Part shown: one piece after another, positions 4,551 to 21,847 of the stretch
Layout of the letters: every line of letters starts with the position of its first letter
How positions within the stretch are numbered: position 1 is the stretch's first letter
Assembly (NCBI GenBank): GCA_018003015.1
Contig: JAGNEZ010000065.1
Coordinates: forward strand, 1-32,346
Direction of reading: 5' to 3'
DNA: 32,346 nt
Origin: Phycisphaerae bacterium
Lineage (GTDB): Bacteria > Planctomycetota > Phycisphaerae > UBA1845 > PWPN01
The notes under the pieces: model-generated
The model's input: the letters and a program-made list of their open reading frames with translations, nothing else
What the model was told of the DNA's origin: nothing
The model's database searches: none
Made by a program: the position numbers and the translations under genes

Positions 4551-5465
4551 TCAATCGGCCGGTTTGCCGTTCTTCGAACCGATCGAGGCTCTGGCGATAT
4601 CTTCCGCGGTGCGGTAGCTCGCCTGCCGGTAGCGCTCGTGAGGTGTCACGCAGTGCACGATACTGATGCTGGTGACGGCGAGGGCTGCCAAGGTGAGCAG
4701 TCCTGCGATCAACGCGCCCACGGCGTACCGGCCGGCCACCTGGTCTGACTCAACGAACATAGCGCCGCCGAGGAGGTACACGGTCGCAATCAGCAGGACG
4801 ATGGCGCCGACGCACTTGACGACCACCAGAGGAGGCATGGGGAGAAGGTGTCCGCCCTCGGGCCGGAAGATGCAGCGGGGGCAGCGGGGGCGGCCGTTGA
4901 GCCCGATCATCACCTCGCCGAATTCCCCACAGGCTGAGCATTCACCGACGCTGCGACCCTGATGAACGGCCCGTGCCGAGCGCATGAGGATCCGGTAGGC
5001 GTTTGAGATCAGGACGAACCGCCGGCGGGCATGCTCCTCCCCGCGGTGTTTATCCGGGTGCATTCTCAGAGCCAGGCGCCGGTAGGCGTGTTTCACGTCC
5101 TCGACGGCGACGGGGTCGCGCAGGCCGAGGAGGTTCATGCAGTCGCGGGCCGACATCCGTCGAGCGACGCATGACAGGCAGAGTGGTCGTCGGTCGTGAT
5201 CGAGGACGACCTCGCCGACGTGGCCGCACCGCCTGCATTCGCCCAGCCGCCACCCCGGGTCGATCCGGCGAGACTGTCGCATGAGGGTTCGATAGGCGTT
5301 GGCCAAGACGATGAAGCGGCGGCGAGCCTGGTCGTCGCCTGGATGACGGTCAGGGTGCATCCGCCGGGCCAGCGTTCGATATGCCCGACGGATGTCCTCT
5401 GCCGACGCCGGCGCGGTCAGTTCCAGCAGCCTCATGCAGTCTGAGGTAGTGCGGGCGACAACCAA
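4551..5465 (-). CDS. Membrane protein with two J-domain/zinc-ribbon repeats
   Basis: From N- to C-terminus this roughly 304-residue protein shows J-domain 1 (HPD at 37-39), a CxxC...CxxC zinc ribbon (C77, C80, C96, C99), J-domain 2 (HPD at 136-138), a second zinc ribbon (C176, C179, C195, C198) and two transmembrane helices (about 213-234 and 247-270). J-domains stimulate DnaK-type ATPases through HPD, so it probably recruits Hsp70 to the membrane or binds a partner there. I chose a TTG start at 5465: it has GGAG eight bases upstream and restores the first DCM that matches the second repeat. The ATG at 5435 would begin at that Met. The open frame upstream of these starts overlaps the neighbouring lipoprotein gene and is not coding. 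It lacks the Gly/Phe region and peptide-binding domains of classical DnaJ. Confidence 0.85.
   Translation of the reverse strand: MVVARTTSDCMRLLELTAPASAEDIRRAYRTLARRMHPDRHPGDDQARRRFIVLANAYRTLMRQSRRIDPGWRLGECRRCGHVGEVVLDHDRRPLCLSCVARRMSARDCMNLLGLRDPVAVEDVKHAYRRLALRMHPDKHRGEEHARRRFVLISNAYRILMRSARAVHQGRSVGECSACGEFGEVMIGLNGRPRCPRCIFRPEGGHLLPMPPLVVVKCVGAIVLLIATVYLLGGAMFVESDQVAGRYAVGALIAGLLTLAALAVTSISIVHCVTPHERYRQASYRTAEDIARASIGSKNGKPAD
4851..5444 (-). repeat. In-frame tandem duplication of a 297-bp unit (99 residues)
   Basis: Two adjacent 297-bp segments (5148-5444 and 4851-5147) encode the two J-domain/zinc-ribbon units. HPD, the first CxxC and the second CxxC are each offset by exactly 99 residues, so the copies align without gaps. 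By eye, a little under half of the positions are identical, so this is an old duplication. Confidence 0.8.
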
Positions 5466-5635: not shown

Positions 5636-6313
5636 TCAGCTCTCCTCTTGGTATTCGTAGAAGAGTCGTGCGATCTCGGTGGCCAGAGACTCGGCCATGA
5701 CTTGCTGGGCTTCCTTGACGGTCTTGCAGCGGCGGATATTGTGGGGGGAGACTTCGACCTCGACGATTTTGCCCTCGGTCGTCGTCGGCCAGAGGCGTAC
5801 GTCGTCGCGTCGCTCGGCCTGAGCGTTGACGATCTTGACGGACGCGCCGAAGTAGGCGGGCACTCCAGACCAATCCAGCTCGTCGGGCAGGGAATACCGG
5901 CTGATGTTCAGCCAGATCACGATATCGGCCTTGACCAGCCGGCCGACCTCGCGGGCCCCGCGCTTGTCGAAATTCGGCTCGCTCTGGCGTACCTTGGCGA
6001 GTTCCTCGTTGGTCGTCACCCGGTCCACGAGGTCCTGCTCGCGAAGCTCCTGGGCCAAGGCGTCGACGAGCAGGTCGCAGATCTGGCGCGGCTGAGCCAG
6101 GTCTCGATCGTCGTCCACCAGGATGAGCACGGGTTTCCTGGGCAGCTCGTAGCTGACCGCCTTCTTGGGGGGTTTGACCACTCCGAGCGTGTACCAGAAT
6201 GCTCCCGCCTGCTGGCCCGCGCAACTGACGGCGGCCAGGAGACCGGCCACCATGGGCAGCATCAGGATGCGGAAGACCGAGCCAGGGGGGCAAGATGATG
6301 ATGATCTGGGCAT
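5636..6313 (-). CDS. Predicted lipoprotein, paralogue of the 6429-7085 product
   Basis: The ATG at 6313 begins a signal peptide (MPRSSSSCPP, hydrophobic core, then VSC with Cys31 as a weak lipobox), and a GAGG ribosome site lies eight bases upstream. The 225-residue mature domain starts with a strand KPVLILVDDDRD, then a helix-rich part, KADIVIWLNISRYSL and a C-terminal helix ending LFYEYQEES. I do not recognise a named family. The alternating strands and helices resemble the nucleotide-free periplasmic folds of CsgG- or TolB-N-like lipoproteins, but that is only an impression. The neighbouring gene encodes a clear paralogue: ADIVIWLNISRYSL aligns with VDVVIHLSLYQFSL. A paired envelope role is inferred. 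Confidence 0.75.
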   Translation of the reverse strand: MPRSSSSCPPGSVFRILMLPMVAGLLAAVSCAGQQAGAFWYTLGVVKPPKKAVSYELPRKPVLILVDDDRDLAQPRQICDLLVDALAQELREQDLVDRVTTNEELAKVRQSEPNFDKRGAREVGRLVKADIVIWLNISRYSLPDELDWSGVPAYFGASVKIVNAQAERRDDVRLWPTTTEGKIVEVEVSPHNIRRCKTVKEAQQVMAESLATEIARLFYEYQEES

Positions 6314-6428
6314 GCCTTGACCCTCGGTGACGTACGACGGCAGCGGGTACCCGGAGGGGGTCGCTCTGCTCGGCTTGCCTGAAGACGGGCCACGCTGCAC
6401 TTCAAACACAGGACCACCCTCGCTCGGC

Positions 6429-7085
6429 CTAATCGAGCTGGCGCTCGTATTCGTGGAACTTCTTGCCGACTTCCGCGGTGAACATCTCATACGTCCGCTG
6501 GCGGACCTGGTCGGCCCGGACGTTGGTGAAGCCGATTTCCTTCTCTTCCGGGCAGACCACCTTCACCTCGCGGAGAGGAATACGTTCGGCCGGATCGCCC
6601 TTGGTCAGGTCGTGGACTTCCACCGAGGAGTACATTCGCCCGCGGTAGAAGTGGGCCATGCCCGGATCGCGCAGGGAGAACTGGTACAGGGAGAGGTGGA
6701 TGACCACGTCCACCTGGAAATGCTTGCCCAGTTCGACCGGATCGACCTCGGGGCTGCGGCTCTTCTCGAGGTATTTTTCGACCGCCTCCGGCTCCACCGT
6801 CTCGAAGTCCTTGACGTTGGTCTTGAGATAGGCGGCCAGATGCTTAGCCAGCTCAAGGCGGATATGGGGGTAGTCCCACTTGATCTCGATCGGGGCCCAG
6901 ACGTAGATGAGCGTCTTCTTGGCCGGCAGCCGGCTGAATTCGGCATCGACTTTCTCGGTTTTCTCCCCGCTGGCAATCGCGATTGCCTTGAAGACGCTGC
7001 AGCCACACACCACGGGGATGCAGAAGGACATGGCCGCCAAGCAGGACAGCCGCGGGTTGACCGAGCTTCGGTTGGGCCTAGGCAT
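6429..7085 (-). CDS. Predicted lipoprotein, paralogue of the 5636-6313 product
   Basis: The ATG at 7085 gives a 218-residue protein with a signal peptide ending VVCGC (lipidated Cys29 likely). Both paralogues begin Met-Pro-Arg. The mature domain has the same order of elements as its neighbour: a strand KKTLIYVWAPIE, a helix LELAKHLAAYLK, a charged linker, VDVVIHLSLYQFSL, an edge strand SSVEVHDL and a C-terminal amphipathic helix ending KFHEYERQLD. It lies immediately upstream of its paralogue (115-base gap), so the pair is probably co-transcribed after a local duplication. The AGGAG upstream is about 13 bases from the ATG, a long spacing, so weak translation or another start is possible. No function is assigned. 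Confidence 0.75.
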   Translation of the reverse strand: MPRPNRSSVNPRLSCLAAMSFCIPVVCGCSVFKAIAIASGEKTEKVDAEFSRLPAKKTLIYVWAPIEIKWDYPHIRLELAKHLAAYLKTNVKDFETVEPEAVEKYLEKSRSPEVDPVELGKHFQVDVVIHLSLYQFSLRDPGMAHFYRGRMYSSVEVHDLTKGDPAERIPLREVKVVCPEEKEIGFTNVRADQVRQRTYEMFTAEVGKKFHEYERQLD

Positions 7086-7216
7086 GTGCAGTGTACGTCT
7101 CCTCTTGTTGGTGTTGCCTGTCCGCGGGGCAGGCGGCAACGTTTGTCTGGCCTTGGCGGGCTTCCCCCGGCGAGTTCGGGGCGCGGGCGCCGGCCAACGG
7201 TGATCGAGCCTTGTTC

Positions 7217-7272: not shown

Positions 7273-7827
7273 CTAACCTTCTGGCCATCGCACCGGTAGC
7301 GAGCCATCCAGCAGGCCGAGGGCGATAGTCAGGCCCCAGGCGGCCACCAGCATCAGGGCCACCCAGTATACCAGCCGTGCGGCGTCGACTCGATACCAGT
7401 TCAGGGTCGGATATCGTCCGGTCATCATGCAGAAGGCTGCCGCCAGGCCGACGATGGCGGTTCCGATGGCCAGCAGCGCCCCTGCGACCTGGGCTCGCAG
7501 GGCGGCTCGCAGCTGTCCGTGGGTGACGCAAACGAAGGCCGTTGTCATCCCGCAGGTCGGGCAGGGCAATCCGGTGATAGCCACGAAGCCGCAGGGAGGC
7601 AAGCCCAGTTGGCGATGGGTGCCCATATGGCTATCGTCCGGTGTCAGTCGGGCGGCCACGACCAGGGCGGCCACGGCGAAGGCGGTGACACCTGCGGCGT
7701 AAACCCGTCCCCAGACGGGGGAATCCACACGGGCCGTCACGACCAAGGGCCCGAGGGGGTGCTTCGCGGGCCGAGCCATTCTGAAACTCGTCGCGGAGAC
7801 ATCAGGGGCATTGCGATCCACATCCAT
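7273..7827 (-). CDS. DUF2752 family membrane protein
   Basis: The 184-residue protein contains the DUF2752 signature GLPCPTCGMTTAF (C89, C92) and an earlier CGF (C79), with three or four hydrophobic segments at about 42-60, 113-134 and 151-173. Family members are small integral membrane proteins with a conserved Cys-x-x-Cys at the membrane surface; their function is unknown. The start at 7827 follows only a weak purine-rich stretch, and the frame is open for about 80 residues upstream with unconvincing composition, so the N-terminus is uncertain. The first 35 residues are polar. It sits between the lipoprotein pair and the DUF2225-like gene, all on the minus strand. Confidence 0.8.
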   Translation of the reverse strand: MDVDRNAPDVSATSFRMARPAKHPLGPLVVTARVDSPVWGRVYAAGVTAFAVAALVVAARLTPDDSHMGTHRQLGLPPCGFVAITGLPCPTCGMTTAFVCVTHGQLRAALRAQVAGALLAIGTAIVGLAAAFCMMTGRYPTLNWYRVDAARLVYWVALMLVAAWGLTIALGLLDGSLPVRWPEG

Positions 7828-8082
7828 CTGTTCTTCAGCGTATCTGGGTGGGCAGGTGGGGTCAATGCCGGGACCGAGCTCAGGTGCTTGACCGGCAGTG
7901 GCCGGTGGAAGCGAGGTCACCGGCGAGAGTCTGCTGCCGTGGCAGGAACGGGACCACCCGGATATCGGCGGCTTGCCGAAGCCGAAGAGATGCTTGACGC
8001 CTCGCATGAGAACCTGACGCTCGCGGATCGCAGGGGAGGCATAGCAGGGCTCGCATGACTCATGACCCATCTGGGTTCGCCC

Positions 8083-10437: not shown

Positions 10438-12642
10438 TTACGGCACGGGCAAATCGTGGAACTTGAAGGCGATGCCCTGAGGCTTGCCGACCAGCTCGGT
10501 TATTGTGCAGGTGATTTTCTTGATACCGACGCCTTCTGGGAGCGGGGAGAAGGTGAAGGTCTGCGACGTCGTCACAGGACCGCTGCGGGCAGGGTCTCCC
10601 CCGCTGCGGCTGGAGAAGCTGAACGAATTCGACGGGCGTCCGCCGCCCATGCCTGCGCCGCCGCTGGTCCACCCGCCGCCACGAGCCCAGCCGCCGCCGC
10701 TGCCGCCGCCGGTGGTGCCGGCCCCAAAGCCTTGGGGAGAGTATTCATTCCCTTTGCCGTCTTCAAGAACTACGCGCACCCGAGGGGCAGTGCTGCCCAT
10801 GGCTTCGAAGGAATTGCCGCGTGCTCCAGCTCCCTCCAGCGAGGAGACACTCAAGGCGACCGTGACGCCGTCGTCCGAGCTGGCAACGTCGTCCAGACGA
10901 ACCGCCGCGCCTTTGAGTCGGTGGGTGGGCTTCCGATCGATCTCGTCCTGCTTGAACACCGTGGTCCGCACTCGCGCGTCTGCGACGAGCAGCTTGCCGT
11001 CGAGCAGCCTGATCCTCTCAACGTTCCTATCCGCGATGTTCAGGTGGACGGCCGCACACCCGCTTCCTCGGGGGTAGTCGACGCCGGACAGTTCTAGTTT
11101 CAGGGACGACGGTGTCTCCGGCGAGTCCAGCTTGCCGCCGCGATCGTCGCTGGCCTGGACCTTGCCCACCACGGCGCAGAGAAGCTGATTTCCCTGCCCC
11201 TTGGGTCCCTCGACGCGCAGATCCACGACCAGGTTGGGGCGGTAGAAGGACCCGCCGAATCCGCCGCCACCGGTACGGGTCATGGTTCGGGTGTCAAAAC
11301 CAGGCCCGGAGCGGTGATCTTCCCTGGTTTCGAGGTTCATCTCGAAGGGGAACCCGGTGTCGACCATCGCGATCTCCTTCCCTGCCACCCAGCGTACTGC
11401 ATCGACGTTGATCTTGTACTTGCCGGCCGAGATGGTAGCCAGAGCATCGCGGTGGGTCTGGTCGTCAGCCGGAAGGTCCTTCTCCTGGTCGCGGACGGCC
11501 GGTTTTTTCGATGCCGCGGCTGTGGCGATCATGCCGTTCTCGGCCCTGGGGGGCTGGGCCACGAGTCGCCACGGCAAAAGTCCGACGAGGGCGACGATGA
11601 GCAGCGAAATGGAAAGGGGGTTCATCCAGCGGGAGTGATCGTGCAGTTCTCTCATGGCCTTCAGTCTCCGTTTCAGGAACTCGAATGACTCCACGACGCC
11701 AACGGTCACCAGGAGGTTCGGCGACGCTCGGTTGCGATCTGCCAGTTCGACCAGCAATGTGCCGTAGTCGGCGAGCGATGCATCCGTGTGGGCCAGCGCG
11801 CAGGCGTCGCAGGCCAGTTCCTGGTTCAACCGCAATTCGCGCAAGGCGATCCACACCAGCGGGTGGAAGAAGAAGATGCCCCAAATGGCGGTGGCCACCC
11901 AGTTCCACACCAGATCGCCGCGGCGGATGTGGGCCATCTCGTGGCGAAGGATCATTTGCAGCCGCTCCGGACCGGCGTCGCGGACGAGAGAGGCGGGCAG
12001 CACGACGCTTGTTCGAAGGGCCCCGAAGACGATTGGGCTTTCGCAAGCGTCTCCGATGAGCAACAGTGGCGGGTTGGACAGACCCAGCTCGCCGGCCAGC
12101 TTCTCGCAAAGGCTCAGGATGCTCGCGTCTTTGACGAGCAGGCATCCTTTTCGCCATCGCCGGGCGGCTCTGACCCGGGCCAGCAGAACGGTGGCGGCAC
12201 CGGCCACGCCTAGTGCCCACAGTGCGACCAAGATGCCGCGGATCAGGTTGGTTTGATCGGAAGCCGGAAGAGGGGGGTAGGCGTCGGTGGCCGCATCTGA
12301 GGGGGTGGTGGTCGGATTGTCCTCGGTGGCCGGTTGCAAGGGGGGAGCTTGTGCCGCAACCGTTGGCTGGGCAGGGGGCGTAGCCTGGGCAACGGCTGGC
12401 GGTTCAACCCGTGGTTGCGGGAGCCAAGGCAGGTCGATTGTTCCCGGCGAGAGCGCGACCAGAAGGACCTTCACCAGGACGAGCCGCCACATCCAGCAGC
12501 GTGCCCAAGGGGGGATGCTGTGGACCCATCGGCACAGGCACCAGACCAGGACGATGCCGATAGCCCCCTGCCAGGACGCGCGATAGAGGGCGGTGAGCCA
12601 GTCGTGGGCCGCGACGTCGAGCTCAATGGAGGATGGGATCAT
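10438..12642 (-). CDS. BlaR1/MecR1-like M56 zinc metallopeptidase with atypical C-terminal sensor
   Basis: This 734-residue membrane peptidase has N-terminal helices (about 24-40, 50-66), a long Pro/Ala/Thr-rich insert (75-128), another helix (133-155), and then the M56 catalytic core HEMAH at 234-238 with the downstream ligand region NQELACDA around 273-280. A further helix follows near 325-345. In BlaR1/MecR1, ligand binding outside the cell triggers this protease to remove the BlaI repressor. Here the C-terminal half is not a penicillin-binding domain: no SxxK/KTG layout is seen. Instead there is a beta-rich region, then a Gly/Ser-rich segment of about 70 residues and a final beta domain. 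Its ATG overlaps the blaI stop codon as ATGA, indicating translational coupling. Confidence 0.87.
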   Translation of the reverse strand: MIPSSIELDVAAHDWLTALYRASWQGAIGIVLVWCLCRWVHSIPPWARCWMWRLVLVKVLLVALSPGTIDLPWLPQPRVEPPAVAQATPPAQPTVAAQAPPLQPATEDNPTTTPSDAATDAYPPLPASDQTNLIRGILVALWALGVAGAATVLLARVRAARRWRKGCLLVKDASILSLCEKLAGELGLSNPPLLLIGDACESPIVFGALRTSVVLPASLVRDAGPERLQMILRHEMAHIRRGDLVWNWVATAIWGIFFFHPLVWIALRELRLNQELACDACALAHTDASLADYGTLLVELADRNRASPNLLVTVGVVESFEFLKRRLKAMRELHDHSRWMNPLSISLLIVALVGLLPWRLVAQPPRAENGMIATAAASKKPAVRDQEKDLPADDQTHRDALATISAGKYKINVDAVRWVAGKEIAMVDTGFPFEMNLETREDHRSGPGFDTRTMTRTGGGGFGGSFYRPNLVVDLRVEGPKGQGNQLLCAVVGKVQASDDRGGKLDSPETPSSLKLELSGVDYPRGSGCAAVHLNIADRNVERIRLLDGKLLVADARVRTTVFKQDEIDRKPTHRLKGAAVRLDDVASSDDGVTVALSVSSLEGAGARGNSFEAMGSTAPRVRVVLEDGKGNEYSPQGFGAGTTGGGSGGGWARGGGWTSGGAGMGGGRPSNSFSFSSRSGGDPARSGPVTTSQTFTFSPLPEGVGIKKITCTITELVGKPQGIAFKFHDLPVP

Positions 12643-13031
12643 TTTGTGCCCTCGTGGCGTTTGGACTCCAGATCTCGCACCAGCTTCTTCAGTTCTGCGA
12701 GTTCCTTGTCGCCGATCTTGTCGGAGCGCGAGAGGTAGGCGAGGAACGGGGACAATACGCCGTTGAGCATGTTGTCCACGAAACTCTGCACGAGCCCCTG
12801 GCTCATTTCGGCCACTGACCTCTTGGGCGAGTATCGGTAGATCCCCCCGCTCTTGCGGCGAACGAGGAAGCCCTTGGCTCGGAGCCGCTCCATGACGGTC
12901 AGGACGGTGGTGCGGGCCTGGCCGGTGCTGGCGGCCACGTGATCGGCCACCTCGCGAACGGTGATTGGGTGGCGCTCCGCGACGTAGCGGAGGATTTCCC
13001 ACTCAGCTTGCCCGAGGTTGAACTGACTCAT
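12639..13031 (-). CDS. blaI: BlaI/MecI-family transcriptional repressor
   Basis: The 130-residue protein is the size of BlaI/MecI and opens with the typical winged-helix start, FNLGQAEWEILRYVAERHPI. The recognition region TGQARTTVLTVMERLRAKGF and wing GIYRYSP follow, then a helical dimerisation and cleavage region. BlaI repressors bind as dimers to ACTACA-type inverted repeats and are inactivated by the partner M56 protease, encoded here immediately downstream with an ATGA overlap. Two matching boxes lie in its own promoter, so autoregulation is likely. Because the partner lacks a penicillin-binding sensor, the controlled response is probably not beta-lactam resistance; no beta-lactamase gene is in the window. 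The symbol denotes the family, not a proven orthologue. Confidence 0.9.
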   Translation of the reverse strand: MSQFNLGQAEWEILRYVAERHPITVREVADHVAASTGQARTTVLTVMERLRAKGFLVRRKSGGIYRYSPKRSVAEMSQGLVQSFVDNMLNGVLSPFLAYLSRSDKIGDKELAELKKLVRDLESKRHEGTK

Positions 13032-18370: not shown

Positions 18371-19594
18371 TCACTCGAGCATCCAGAGTGCGATCGAGAT
18401 CCGGTCTCGCACGAAGACGCGGTTTCCCGAGATGATCGGGAAGGCATACGTTTCCGCGTCGGCCACGGTGTACCTGGCGATCTCGGTGTACTCCTTGCCA
18501 TCCGGCTTGTAGACGACCAGGACTGGCTTGGTCGGCAGGGTCAGGAGCACGGGACCCGCATCCACGATGGTCGCGAAAGGCGAGCATCGGGCCTCGAGCG
18601 TCCAGTTGGCCGCGCCGGTCCTGGAGTCCATGCAGAAGAGATGGCCGCGGTCGGACACGCCAAACAGCAAACCGTCTTTCAGGACCGGGGTGTTGTAGCA
18701 GGTCCCCAGCTTCTCGTTGCACCAGAGCTGCCTCACAGCAAAGCCATCTCGCTGCCTCTCGATGCGCGCCGCCCGGGTACCGGTGCCCTGGCCGGTGTAG
18801 AACACGGTCTGATCGTCGACGACGGGGGTAGCGGAATGCCAGTAGCCATCCTTGCGCTCGGTCCCGACGTCCCAGAGCAGCCGGCCGTCTGCCAACCCCA
18901 GGCCGATGAGTCTTTTCTCCGTCTGGACGACGACCTGTTTCGTTCCTCCGGCGGTAATCAGCACTGGGGACGAGTACGAGGGGCCTTCGCCGGACCACTT
19001 CCACTTGGGTTCGCCGCTGGCCAAATCCAGGGCTGCGACGACTCCCTTGTTTTCTCCGCCGAGGTGCACGATGCACATGCGGTCGACGATCAACGGCGAC
19101 ATGGCGGTGAAGAACAGGGGGACTTCCTTGGGATCGTGCTTTCGCCAAATCTCCTTGCCGGTCTGGGCATTCAGGCATGACAGCACTCCCCCGACGCCGA
19201 GGCAGACGATCTTGCCGTCCGCGACGGCCGGTGAGCTGCGTGGCCCCGGGAACGGATTGGCCGGGCCGGTTACCGGCTGGGCTGAATATCGGTAGGCCCA
19301 TTTCTCCGTTCCGTCGGCGGGATTGAGGCATAGCAGCACTTCTTCGTCGCCCTGTCGAGCGAGGACGTACAGCCGGTCGCCGACCAGCGCCGGACTTGCC
19401 TCTCCCTGTCCCACCTTGACCCGCCATTTGAGGTTCAGTTGGTTTGGCCAGGTCACGGGGGGTTTGAATCCTGTGACCTTAGCGTCGCGGCCGGGCCCGC
19501 ACCACTGGGGCCAGTCCTGGGCGACCAAGTGCCCGGTGGCCAGCAAAGCGAAGCTGCCCGACGCTGCGACGATGAACGATACTGGGCTTCTCAC
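18371..19594 (-). CDS. Secreted PQQ-like beta-propeller protein
   Basis: I place the start at the GTG at 19594, which has AGGAGG directly upstream; a TTG six codons further up would bury that ribosome site inside the gene. The 407-residue product has a signal peptide, then DWPQWCGPGRD, a variant of the DWPQWRGP opening common in planctomycete PQQ-like proteins. Blade repeats follow: SPALVGDRLYVLARQ, CLNPADGTEKWAY, CLNAQTGKEIWRK, ALDLASGEPKWKW and CMDSRTGAANWTL. The Trp-docking repeats give a seven- or eight-bladed propeller. No quinone-dehydrogenase active site is evident, so a scaffold, binding or outer-membrane assembly role is more likely than redox catalysis. It lies 118 bases upstream of the beta-helix gene and may share its transcript. 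Confidence 0.9.
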   Translation of the reverse strand: MRSPVSFIVAASGSFALLATGHLVAQDWPQWCGPGRDAKVTGFKPPVTWPNQLNLKWRVKVGQGEASPALVGDRLYVLARQGDEEVLLCLNPADGTEKWAYRYSAQPVTGPANPFPGPRSSPAVADGKIVCLGVGGVLSCLNAQTGKEIWRKHDPKEVPLFFTAMSPLIVDRMCIVHLGGENKGVVAALDLASGEPKWKWSGEGPSYSSPVLITAGGTKQVVVQTEKRLIGLGLADGRLLWDVGTERKDGYWHSATPVVDDQTVFYTGQGTGTRAARIERQRDGFAVRQLWCNEKLGTCYNTPVLKDGLLFGVSDRGHLFCMDSRTGAANWTLEARCSPFATIVDAGPVLLTLPTKPVLVVYKPDGKEYTEIARYTVADAETYAFPIISGNRVFVRDRISIALWMLE

Positions 19595-19865
19595 GATGCC
19601 TCCTCTTGGCAATCTGCGGGCGGTCCGCCTCGGGCGACGAGGGCGGCATCCAATGCCGGTCTCGGCCCAGGATATCCTATCTCTGCCACTTCTGACCAGC
19701 CCCCCCCACTTCGGTTCGACATCGATCCGGGGTTCCTTCGGCGTGGCACCATACCCGGGCGAACAGACCTTGGGCGTTGGACGATGCGGGCCATCGGTCC
19801 TGCGGCACGTTTTCCCCTACCCCCACTGGATAACCGTCTGCCAAGATCGTATTCTGTGGGACACG

Positions 19866-20774
19866 ATGAAACCGGACACCTTCACCATCGCAGTGGTTCA
19901 GCACGCCTGTGCCGACGACCGGGGGACGAATATCGCCCGGGCGACGCAAGGGATTCGGGATGCTGCTTCGCAGGGAGCCCGGATCGTGTGTTTGCAGGAG
20001 CTTTTCGGCTCGACGTACTTCTGCAAGAAGGAGGACGTGGAGCGGTTTGCCCTGGCCGAGCCCGTACCCGGCCCGACGATTGAAGCCCTGCAGCCAGTCG
20101 CCCGCGGACTGGGTGTGGTGGTCGTGGTTCCTCTCTTCGAGCGGCGTGCACCGGGAGTCTACCACAACTCGGCCGCTGTCGTGGATGCGGACGGCTCGCT
20201 GATCGGCACTTACCGCAAGATGCACATTCCGGACGACCCGCTGTACTACGAGAAGTACTACTTCGCGCCGGGGGACGCGACCGGCCCGACCTGCGGCTTT
20301 CGGGTCTTCGAGACCCGCCACGCGCGGATCGGGGTGCTGATCTGCTGGGACCAGTGGTACCCTGAGGCGGCCCGGATCACCACGCTCCTTGGGGCCGAAG
20401 TGCTGTTCTATCCCACGGCCATCGGCTGGCACCCGAAGGAGAAAGCCCAGTACGGCCAGGAACAGGTTGCCGCGTGGCGAGCGATTCAGCGAAGCCACGC
20501 GATTGCCAATGGGGTATACGTTGCCGCGGCCAACCGGATCGGGCACGAGACCGAGCCGGGGACGGACGGCATCGAGTTCTTCGGCCAGTCGTTCATTTGC
20601 GGTCCCTTCGGGCAGTTTCTGGCCGAGGCTCCGAGCGACTGCCCGGCGGTCCTGACCGCCGAATGCAGCCGCTCGAAGATGGAAAGCGTTCGACGTCACT
20701 GGCCGTTCCTCCGCGACCGCCGGGTTGATGGGTACGCTCTGATCGTGGAGCGTTACCTGGGTGACCGGCCATGA
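19866..20774 (+). CDS. aguB: N-carbamoylputrescine amidase
   Basis: The 302-residue protein is a nitrilase-superfamily amidohydrolase with the complete Glu-Lys-Cys triad: E45 in CLQELFGSTYF, K118 in YRKMHIPDDP and C160 in LICWDQWYPE. The FGSTYFC and KMHIPDDPLYYEKYYF segments are characteristic of N-carbamoylputrescine amidase, which converts N-carbamoylputrescine to putrescine, CO2 and ammonia in the cytoplasm. The ATG at 19866 is favoured because the frame upstream is non-homologous. GGGA precedes it closely. The stop overlaps the start of the agmatine deiminase gene (ATGA), so the two steps of the pathway are translationally coupled. The identification is strong because both enzymes are present. 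Confidence 0.95.
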   Translation: MKPDTFTIAVVQHACADDRGTNIARATQGIRDAASQGARIVCLQELFGSTYFCKKEDVERFALAEPVPGPTIEALQPVARGLGVVVVVPLFERRAPGVYHNSAAVVDADGSLIGTYRKMHIPDDPLYYEKYYFAPGDATGPTCGFRVFETRHARIGVLICWDQWYPEAARITTLLGAEVLFYPTAIGWHPKEKAQYGQEQVAAWRAIQRSHAIANGVYVAAANRIGHETEPGTDGIEFFGQSFICGPFGQFLAEAPSDCPAVLTAECSRSKMESVRRHWPFLRDRRVDGYALIVERYLGDRP

Positions 20775-21847
20775 CGGGCGCCGGGATGAGGGGTGTCCCC
20801 CCCTGCCGCATGCCGGCCGAATGGGAATTGCACGATGCGACCTGGATTGCCTGGCCGCACCACGAGCCCGACTGGCCGGGCAAGTTGGAGCCGATCCACT
20901 GGGTGTATGCGGAGATCATCCGTGTGTTGAGCGGTTCCGAGCGGGTTGAGATTCTCTGCCACGACGAGGCGACCCGTGAGAAGGCGGCTAGCTGTCTCGA
21001 ACAGAACGGCGTTGGTGCCTGCCGATACCGCCTGCACGAGCTCGCGAACGACCGGTCGTGGCTTCGCGATTCCGCTCCCACCGCGGTGCGCTCCACGGAT
21101 GGTGAGGTCATCTGGATCCAATGGCGATTCAACGCCTGGGCCAAGTATGACAACTACCGGCTTGACGAAGGCGTTCCGCGGTTCATTGCCGAGGCCACCG
21201 GCCTGAAGCGGGTGGAGGCCTTGCGGCCCGACAACGGTCAGCCTTTCGTGCTGGAGGGTGGCAGCATTGATACGGACGGCGGAGGGACGCTGCTGGTGAC
21301 GGAAGAGTGCTTCCTGTCGGAGCAGCAGTGCCGCAATCCGGGCCTTAGCCGCGAGGGCTACGAGGAGGCATTTGCCCGCTACTTGGGCATTCGGAAGACC
21401 CTGTGGCTCGGTCGGGGTTGCGTAGGTGACGACACGCACGGGCACATTGACGATCTGGCCCGCTTCGTCGCCCCTTCGACGGTGGTGCTGGCTTACGAAG
21501 ACAAGGCGAGCGATCCGAACCACGAGATGAGTGTGGACAATCTGGGGCGGCTGAAGCGGGCGACTGACGCCGCCGGCCGATCGCTCACCGTAGTGACGAT
21601 TCCGATGCCGGAGCCGGTGTTGTTTGGCGGCGAACGGCTTCCGGCGAGCTACGCCAACTTCTACATCGCCAACAGTGTGGTTCTGGTGCCGACGTTCAAC
21701 GACCCGAACGACCGGACGGTTCTGGCGACTCTGGCCGGTCTGTTCCCCAACCGACGGGTGGTGGGCATCCACTGCCGGGATCTGATTCTCGGTCTGGGTA
21801 CGCTTCACTGTCTCAGCCAGCAGCAACCGGCCGCCCTGGGCCATTGA
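20771..21847 (+). CDS. aguA: Agmatine deiminase
   Basis: The 358-residue protein is a peptidyl-arginine-deiminase-type guanidino-modifying enzyme that converts agmatine to N-carbamoylputrescine and ammonia. Visible motifs are PAEWELHDATWIAWPH near the N-terminus, NDRSWLRDSAPT (93-104; the usual form has Gly in place of Ala102), LEGGSIDTDG at 161-170, HGHIDD with the catalytic His225/Asp227 pair, and the nucleophile Cys347 in GLGTLHCLSQQQ. Start and upstream stop overlap by four bases with aguB, indicating one operon. Together they make putrescine from agmatine; no arginine decarboxylase or agmatinase gene is in the window, so the agmatine source lies elsewhere. Confidence 0.95.
   Translation: MTGAGMRGVPPCRMPAEWELHDATWIAWPHHEPDWPGKLEPIHWVYAEIIRVLSGSERVEILCHDEATREKAASCLEQNGVGACRYRLHELANDRSWLRDSAPTAVRSTDGEVIWIQWRFNAWAKYDNYRLDEGVPRFIAEATGLKRVEALRPDNGQPFVLEGGSIDTDGGGTLLVTEECFLSEQQCRNPGLSREGYEEAFARYLGIRKTLWLGRGCVGDDTHGHIDDLARFVAPSTVVLAYEDKASDPNHEMSVDNLGRLKRATDAAGRSLTVVTIPMPEPVLFGGERLPASYANFYIANSVVLVPTFNDPNDRTVLATLAGLFPNRRVVGIHCRDLILGLGTLHCLSQQQPAALGH

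Follow-up and report, generated by a model that had tools for sequence, protein, structure and literature searches.

A planctomycete J-domain protein with a J-ribbon unit doubled in frame ahead of a two-helix hydrophobic hairpin

The locus and its J-ribbon gene

The window analyzed here is the whole 32,346-nucleotide stretch of contig JAGNEZ010000065.1 (assembly GCA_018003015.1) from a Phycisphaerae bacterium, referred to below as G000. Its minus strand carries a gene for a J-domain and ribbon (J-ribbon) that occur twice, followed by an LPxP motif and two predicted membrane helices; genes for two lipoproteins and a DUF2752 membrane protein lie upstream (Table 1). No RNA features were found in the window with Rfam.

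Table 1. Features of the J-ribbon gene and the adjoining genes, in window coordinates
Feature	Position	Strand	Evidence and remarks
Whole gene, (J-ribbon)x2-LPxP-TM-TM, 304 aa	4551..5465	minus	TTG start at 5465
J-domain 1	5262..5441	minus	Pfam PF00226, 55.4 bits; HPD at 5349-5357; helices in model
Ribbon 1, CxxC-x15-CxxC	5166..5243	minus	Sequence; strands in model; putative zinc ribbon
J-domain 2	4965..5144	minus	Pfam PF00226, 52.9 bits; HPD at 5052-5060
Ribbon 2, CxxC-x15-CxxC, G-L-N-G turn	4866..4946	minus	Cysteines invariant in 29/29 relatives
Membrane helix 1	4764..4829	minus	Follows conserved LPxP; hydropathy, model; LP invariant in relatives
Membrane helix 2	4656..4727	minus	Hydropathy, model
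Lipoprotein B, PelC/GNA1162-like fold	5636..6490	minus	Same order in seven genomes; fold; start codon provisional
Lipoprotein A, distant homolog of B	6429..7139	minus	Gene order, homology
DUF2752 membrane protein	7273..8070	minus	Pfam PF10825, E 2.3e-12; same order in seven genomes

The TTG start has a GGAG 8 nt upstream, and both are conserved in G001, another species of the genus. The J frame stays open upstream of the TTG, and that extension overlaps the lipoprotein gene in another frame; codon-position G+C shows the J-frame pattern only from about 5400 onward. The alternative start, an ATG at 5435, would cut off the beginning of J helix I.

HPD occupies residues 37-39 (repeat 1) and 136-138 (repeat 2) of the protein, and the CxxC pairs lie at 77-80/96-99 and 176-179/195-198. 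The offset is 99 in each case, so the gap-free 99-residue spacing reported in the first-pass annotation is accurate, as is its statement that both HPD motifs are intact. Its description of the duplication as exact holds for this spacing but not for the copies themselves, which are only about half identical (48/94 positions, ungapped, E 1e-34, far beyond chance). Each J-domain alone exceeds the Pfam cut-off, with a whole-protein J match at E 1.5e-29. The G-L-D/N-G ribbon turn is no longer present in repeat 1, and J-domain 2 is the copy that aligns with the single J-domain of relatives.

Two membrane helices had also been proposed, and hydrophobic stretches at about residues 213-234 and 247-270 are helical in the AlphaFold2 model (29 sequences; pLDDT 85.9). 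Both J-domains, both ribbons, and the helices are formed in this model, but with a pTM of 0.56 the relative placement of the domains is not to be trusted. In fold, the J part agrees with the J-domain bound to DnaK in complex 5nro (rmsd 2.0); among the matches listed in a PDB search with the protein model there were only J-domains and none on the ribbon. Positive charges are concentrated beside the helices, on the J side and in the C-terminal tail, with few in the loop (29/29 sequences), and this distribution, read together with the model, favors a topology with cytoplasmic J-domains.

The protein belongs in class C: it has a J-domain with HPD, shares only that domain with DnaJ, and has neither a G/F region nor a client-binding beta-sandwich (Pfam finds the J-domain only). 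It also falls below the NCBIfam equivalog cut-off for DnaJ (79.0 versus 377.2 bits) and the cut-offs for CbpA (46.3 versus 403 bits) and DjlA (39.4 versus 162 bits), and its helices are C-terminal, which bears out the earlier statement that its architecture is that of none of the three.

A single-headed family and the origin of the second unit

In 150 relatives that were searched, many ORFs match the second half of the window protein only. About a third of the genomes of the order encode shorter proteins of this type (J-ribbon-LPxP-TM-TM, about 180 residues) with a single J-domain, and HPD, four cysteines, and LP are invariant in 29/29 aligned sequences. The window protein itself has the HPD, the CxxC/CxxC ribbon, the LP, and the two helices of this family. 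A profile search gave long matches through the J-domain, ribbon, and helices in 38/114 genomes of the order; G006, where the stretch reads N, and G009, where a contig end truncates it, are probably two further carriers. The window protein matches the profile over its full length at 1.7e-61, a value obtained with a profile that includes the window sequence itself, and a single-protein search with the window protein also recovers the single-headed relatives. Outside the order, there was no full-length profile match in the class (397) or phylum (392) samples, in which at most eight candidates per genome were scored, so this search may have passed over distant relatives. The family has no named model in Pfam or NCBIfam; J and DnaJ-type models do hit it, but below the whole-protein cut-offs of NCBIfam.

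The single-headed proteins share the unit and its motifs with the window protein and, in the nearest species, are 42-52% identical to its second half, but they have one J-ribbon where the window protein has two. Apart from G000 and G001, every carrier read has a single J-ribbon unit; G028 carries two separate genes. The architectural novelty suggested by the first-pass annotation is therefore narrower than proposed: the doubled J-ribbon was seen in one genus only, whereas J-ribbon-TM-TM proteins already form a family in this lineage, normally with one J-domain. Separately, in G017 a paralogous J-membrane gene with HPN for HPD and no ribbon (L106:7522-8076) lies directly before a single-headed J-ribbon gene, and this is another way to pair two J modules, one of them probably inactive.

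The earlier annotation had allowed that the two halves could be separate ORFs joined by a sequence error. The same in-frame protein, 94% identical and in the same gene order, is found in G001 (contig JAKLEZ010000001.1, from a Planctomycetota MAG); this makes such a join negligibly probable and rules out a sequencing, frameshift, or assembly artefact. Doubling of the J-ribbon unit in frame, N-terminal to the two-helix hairpin, is a feature of one genus's lineage. The duplication is not recent, because of the low identity between the repeats; at the DNA level they are 58.6% identical with saturated synonymous sites (dN 0.41, dS about 1.9). In a tree of J-ribbon units, both repeats fall within a clade with G010, G011, and G007 (support 96/91), and the duplication therefore most likely arose within the family-level group of the window's genus, as judged from these sequences. 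The repeats may or may not be each other's sisters in this tree: grouping them as one clade gave an AU P of 0.33. A duplication common to the whole family was rejected, as the other carriers have one unit, and no remnant of a second unit was found by tblastn in G010, G007, G011, or G008.

The two repeats differ in how fast they have changed, which raises the question of whether repeat 1 is now a spare copy, redundant at least in part or already decaying, left to drift after a neutral internal duplication while repeat 2 does the work. Its branch is threefold longer (0.85 versus 0.29), its ribbon turn is gone, and between G000 and G001 omega is 0.36 for repeat 1 compared with 0.07 for repeat 2 and 0.12 for the membrane part. 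The latter two are clearly under constraint in this comparison, but purifying selection on repeat 1 is not significant (P 0.09). These tests come from one species pair, however, and the difference between the repeats is not significant either (P 0.14). HPD, all four cysteines, and the open frame of repeat 1 survive a saturated synonymous distance and are kept in both species, which is the better evidence that repeat 1 works. We consider a spare repeat 1 rather unlikely.

Gene neighborhood

The order DUF2752-lipoprotein A-lipoprotein B-J, on one strand, is found in G000, G001, G006, G007, G008, G010, and G011, all of the family-level group. The adjacent lipoproteins (window 5636-7139, minus strand) have no Pfam family and are distantly homologous to each other (E 7e-5). 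The model of lipoprotein B (pLDDT 83.3) has a fold of the PelC/GNA1162/CsgG/TolB-N type (Foldseek E 4e-6; VIA Z 11.7, rmsd 2.8, 129 residues); there was no sequence match in PDB or Pfam, and the PelC/GNA1162 likeness is one of fold only. In other bacteria, the PelC/GNA1162/CsgG fold forms outer-membrane rings. Relatives of the lipoprotein pair are present in 108/114 genomes of the order, mostly without a J gene beside them, and the majority of these genomes lack a J gene of this kind altogether; G004 has the pair on one contig and the J gene on another. The association is therefore local.

Elsewhere the neighbor of the J gene is an LpxL-like acyltransferase in four genomes and an M56 peptidase in three (G004, G012, and G113). 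By inspection, this pattern of envelope and membrane-protein neighbors suggests a role in envelope biogenesis, although the link is weak because the neighbors vary by lineage and the lipoprotein pair mostly lacks an adjacent J gene. Neither the protein nor its neighbors had a PADLOC match to a defence system, and a phage origin was rejected, as the PHROGs matches lie almost wholly on the J parts. The window also holds an 854-residue BlaR1/M56-type membrane peptidase (10438-13002, minus strand) and, at 19323-21847 on the plus strand, two adjoining genes that likely act in a polyamine pathway, one for a carbon-nitrogen hydrolase and one of the peptidyl-arginine/agmatine deiminase type.

Hsp70 partner and proposed role

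The DnaJ residues that contact DnaK are HPD, R22, K26, R27, K48, and K51 (PMC8215388). Positions 22 and 26 and the HPD are kept in both repeats; repeat 2 is basic at 22, 26, and 27, whereas repeat 1 has T at 27. K48 and K51 are absent from both repeats and from most relatives. The DnaK of the genome keeps R167, E217, Q378, L391, P419, and D477, with D at position 206 and position 211 in an alignment gap, and a DnaK-type Hsp70 is present in nearly all genomes of the order. Because contact residues are kept on both sides, the protein likely contacts DnaK, but the absence of K48 and K51 means that the match may differ from that of DnaJ. The two Hsp70 contacts per chain allowed for in the first-pass annotation are possible, but the two J sites may be unequal, given the longer branch, lost turn, and R27-to-T change of repeat 1.

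Replacement of K48 and K51 across the family could instead mean that the protein serves an Hsp70 other than DnaK, for example the second Hsp70 of this genome, in which there are two further long Hsp70 matches; in E. coli, DjlB and DjlC serve HscC. The second Hsp70, however, lacks D477 and E206, and a weak J-like gene of its own lies just upstream; carriers of the family show no visible excess of Hsp70s (one to three each, like the rest of the order), so we regard another partner as improbable. This stretch (G000:C15:24029-26359, L005 and L007), with the weak J match (23.6 bits, below the cut-off) and the second Hsp70, possibly holds a dedicated J/Hsp70 pair.

J-proteins usually have one J-domain per chain, and classes A and B reach two by dimerising. 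Like class A DnaJ, the window protein joins a J-domain and a zinc-binding part (here putative) in one chain, but DnaJ has one J-domain, a G/F region, beta-sandwich client domains, a CxxCxGxG zinc finger, and no membrane helix. DPH4/DNAJC24 and human HSCB, in which a J-domain sits beside a small Cys4 zinc domain, offer a lead; they differ in being soluble, with a single J-domain and other ribbon types and pathways. DjlA of E. coli is a membrane-anchored J-protein that works with DnaK (PMC11709261). It resembles the window protein in its inner-membrane anchor, intact HPD, and cytoplasmic J-domain (predicted, for the window protein), but in DjlA a single helix stands at the N terminus and a single J-domain at the C terminus, along with a TerB-like domain, whereas the window protein has J-ribbon twice at the N terminus and two helices at the C terminus. 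Leishmania J14 has two J-domains in a 326-residue chain and belongs to class III/C (PMC9141911); it is eukaryotic, with no ribbon or membrane helix listed, and is compared here by architecture, not kinship. No bacterial tandem-J protein was found in the literature searched; the bacterial J-protein survey of Barriot et al. (2020) lay outside that search, so an earlier mention is possible.

On balance, we favor the reading that the protein is a membrane-anchored, DjlA-like class C co-chaperone that recruits DnaK to the membrane on its cytoplasmic side, probably for envelope biogenesis, and whose J-ribbon has been duplicated in frame. Anchored in the inner membrane by its helices, it would expose J-domains and ribbons to the cytoplasm, where each HPD could engage the housekeeping DnaK at its interdomain linker and trigger ATP hydrolysis, and DnaK would thereby be loaded onto clients at the membrane. 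The ribbons may hold clients or partner proteins. The clients would most likely be envelope precursors, because, wherever its surroundings are conserved, the gene adjoins envelope or membrane-protein genes. The second module could add avidity or a second DnaK site but would not be required, because relatives manage with one. A stronger version, in which two working J-domains per chain load two DnaK molecules at a single site on the membrane and each module has a client ribbon of its own, and in which this bivalent recruiter for envelope biogenesis derives from the single-headed family, is possible but tentative.

What is odd about the protein is only the extra J-ribbon, in one genus, and it is an understandable variation on a known kind of protein. 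The family, so far of one planctomycete order, adds a membrane J-protein to the possible bacterial routes of Hsp70 to the membrane. One-headed and two-headed forms with the same anchor make a natural pair and would allow a direct test of what a second J-domain does.
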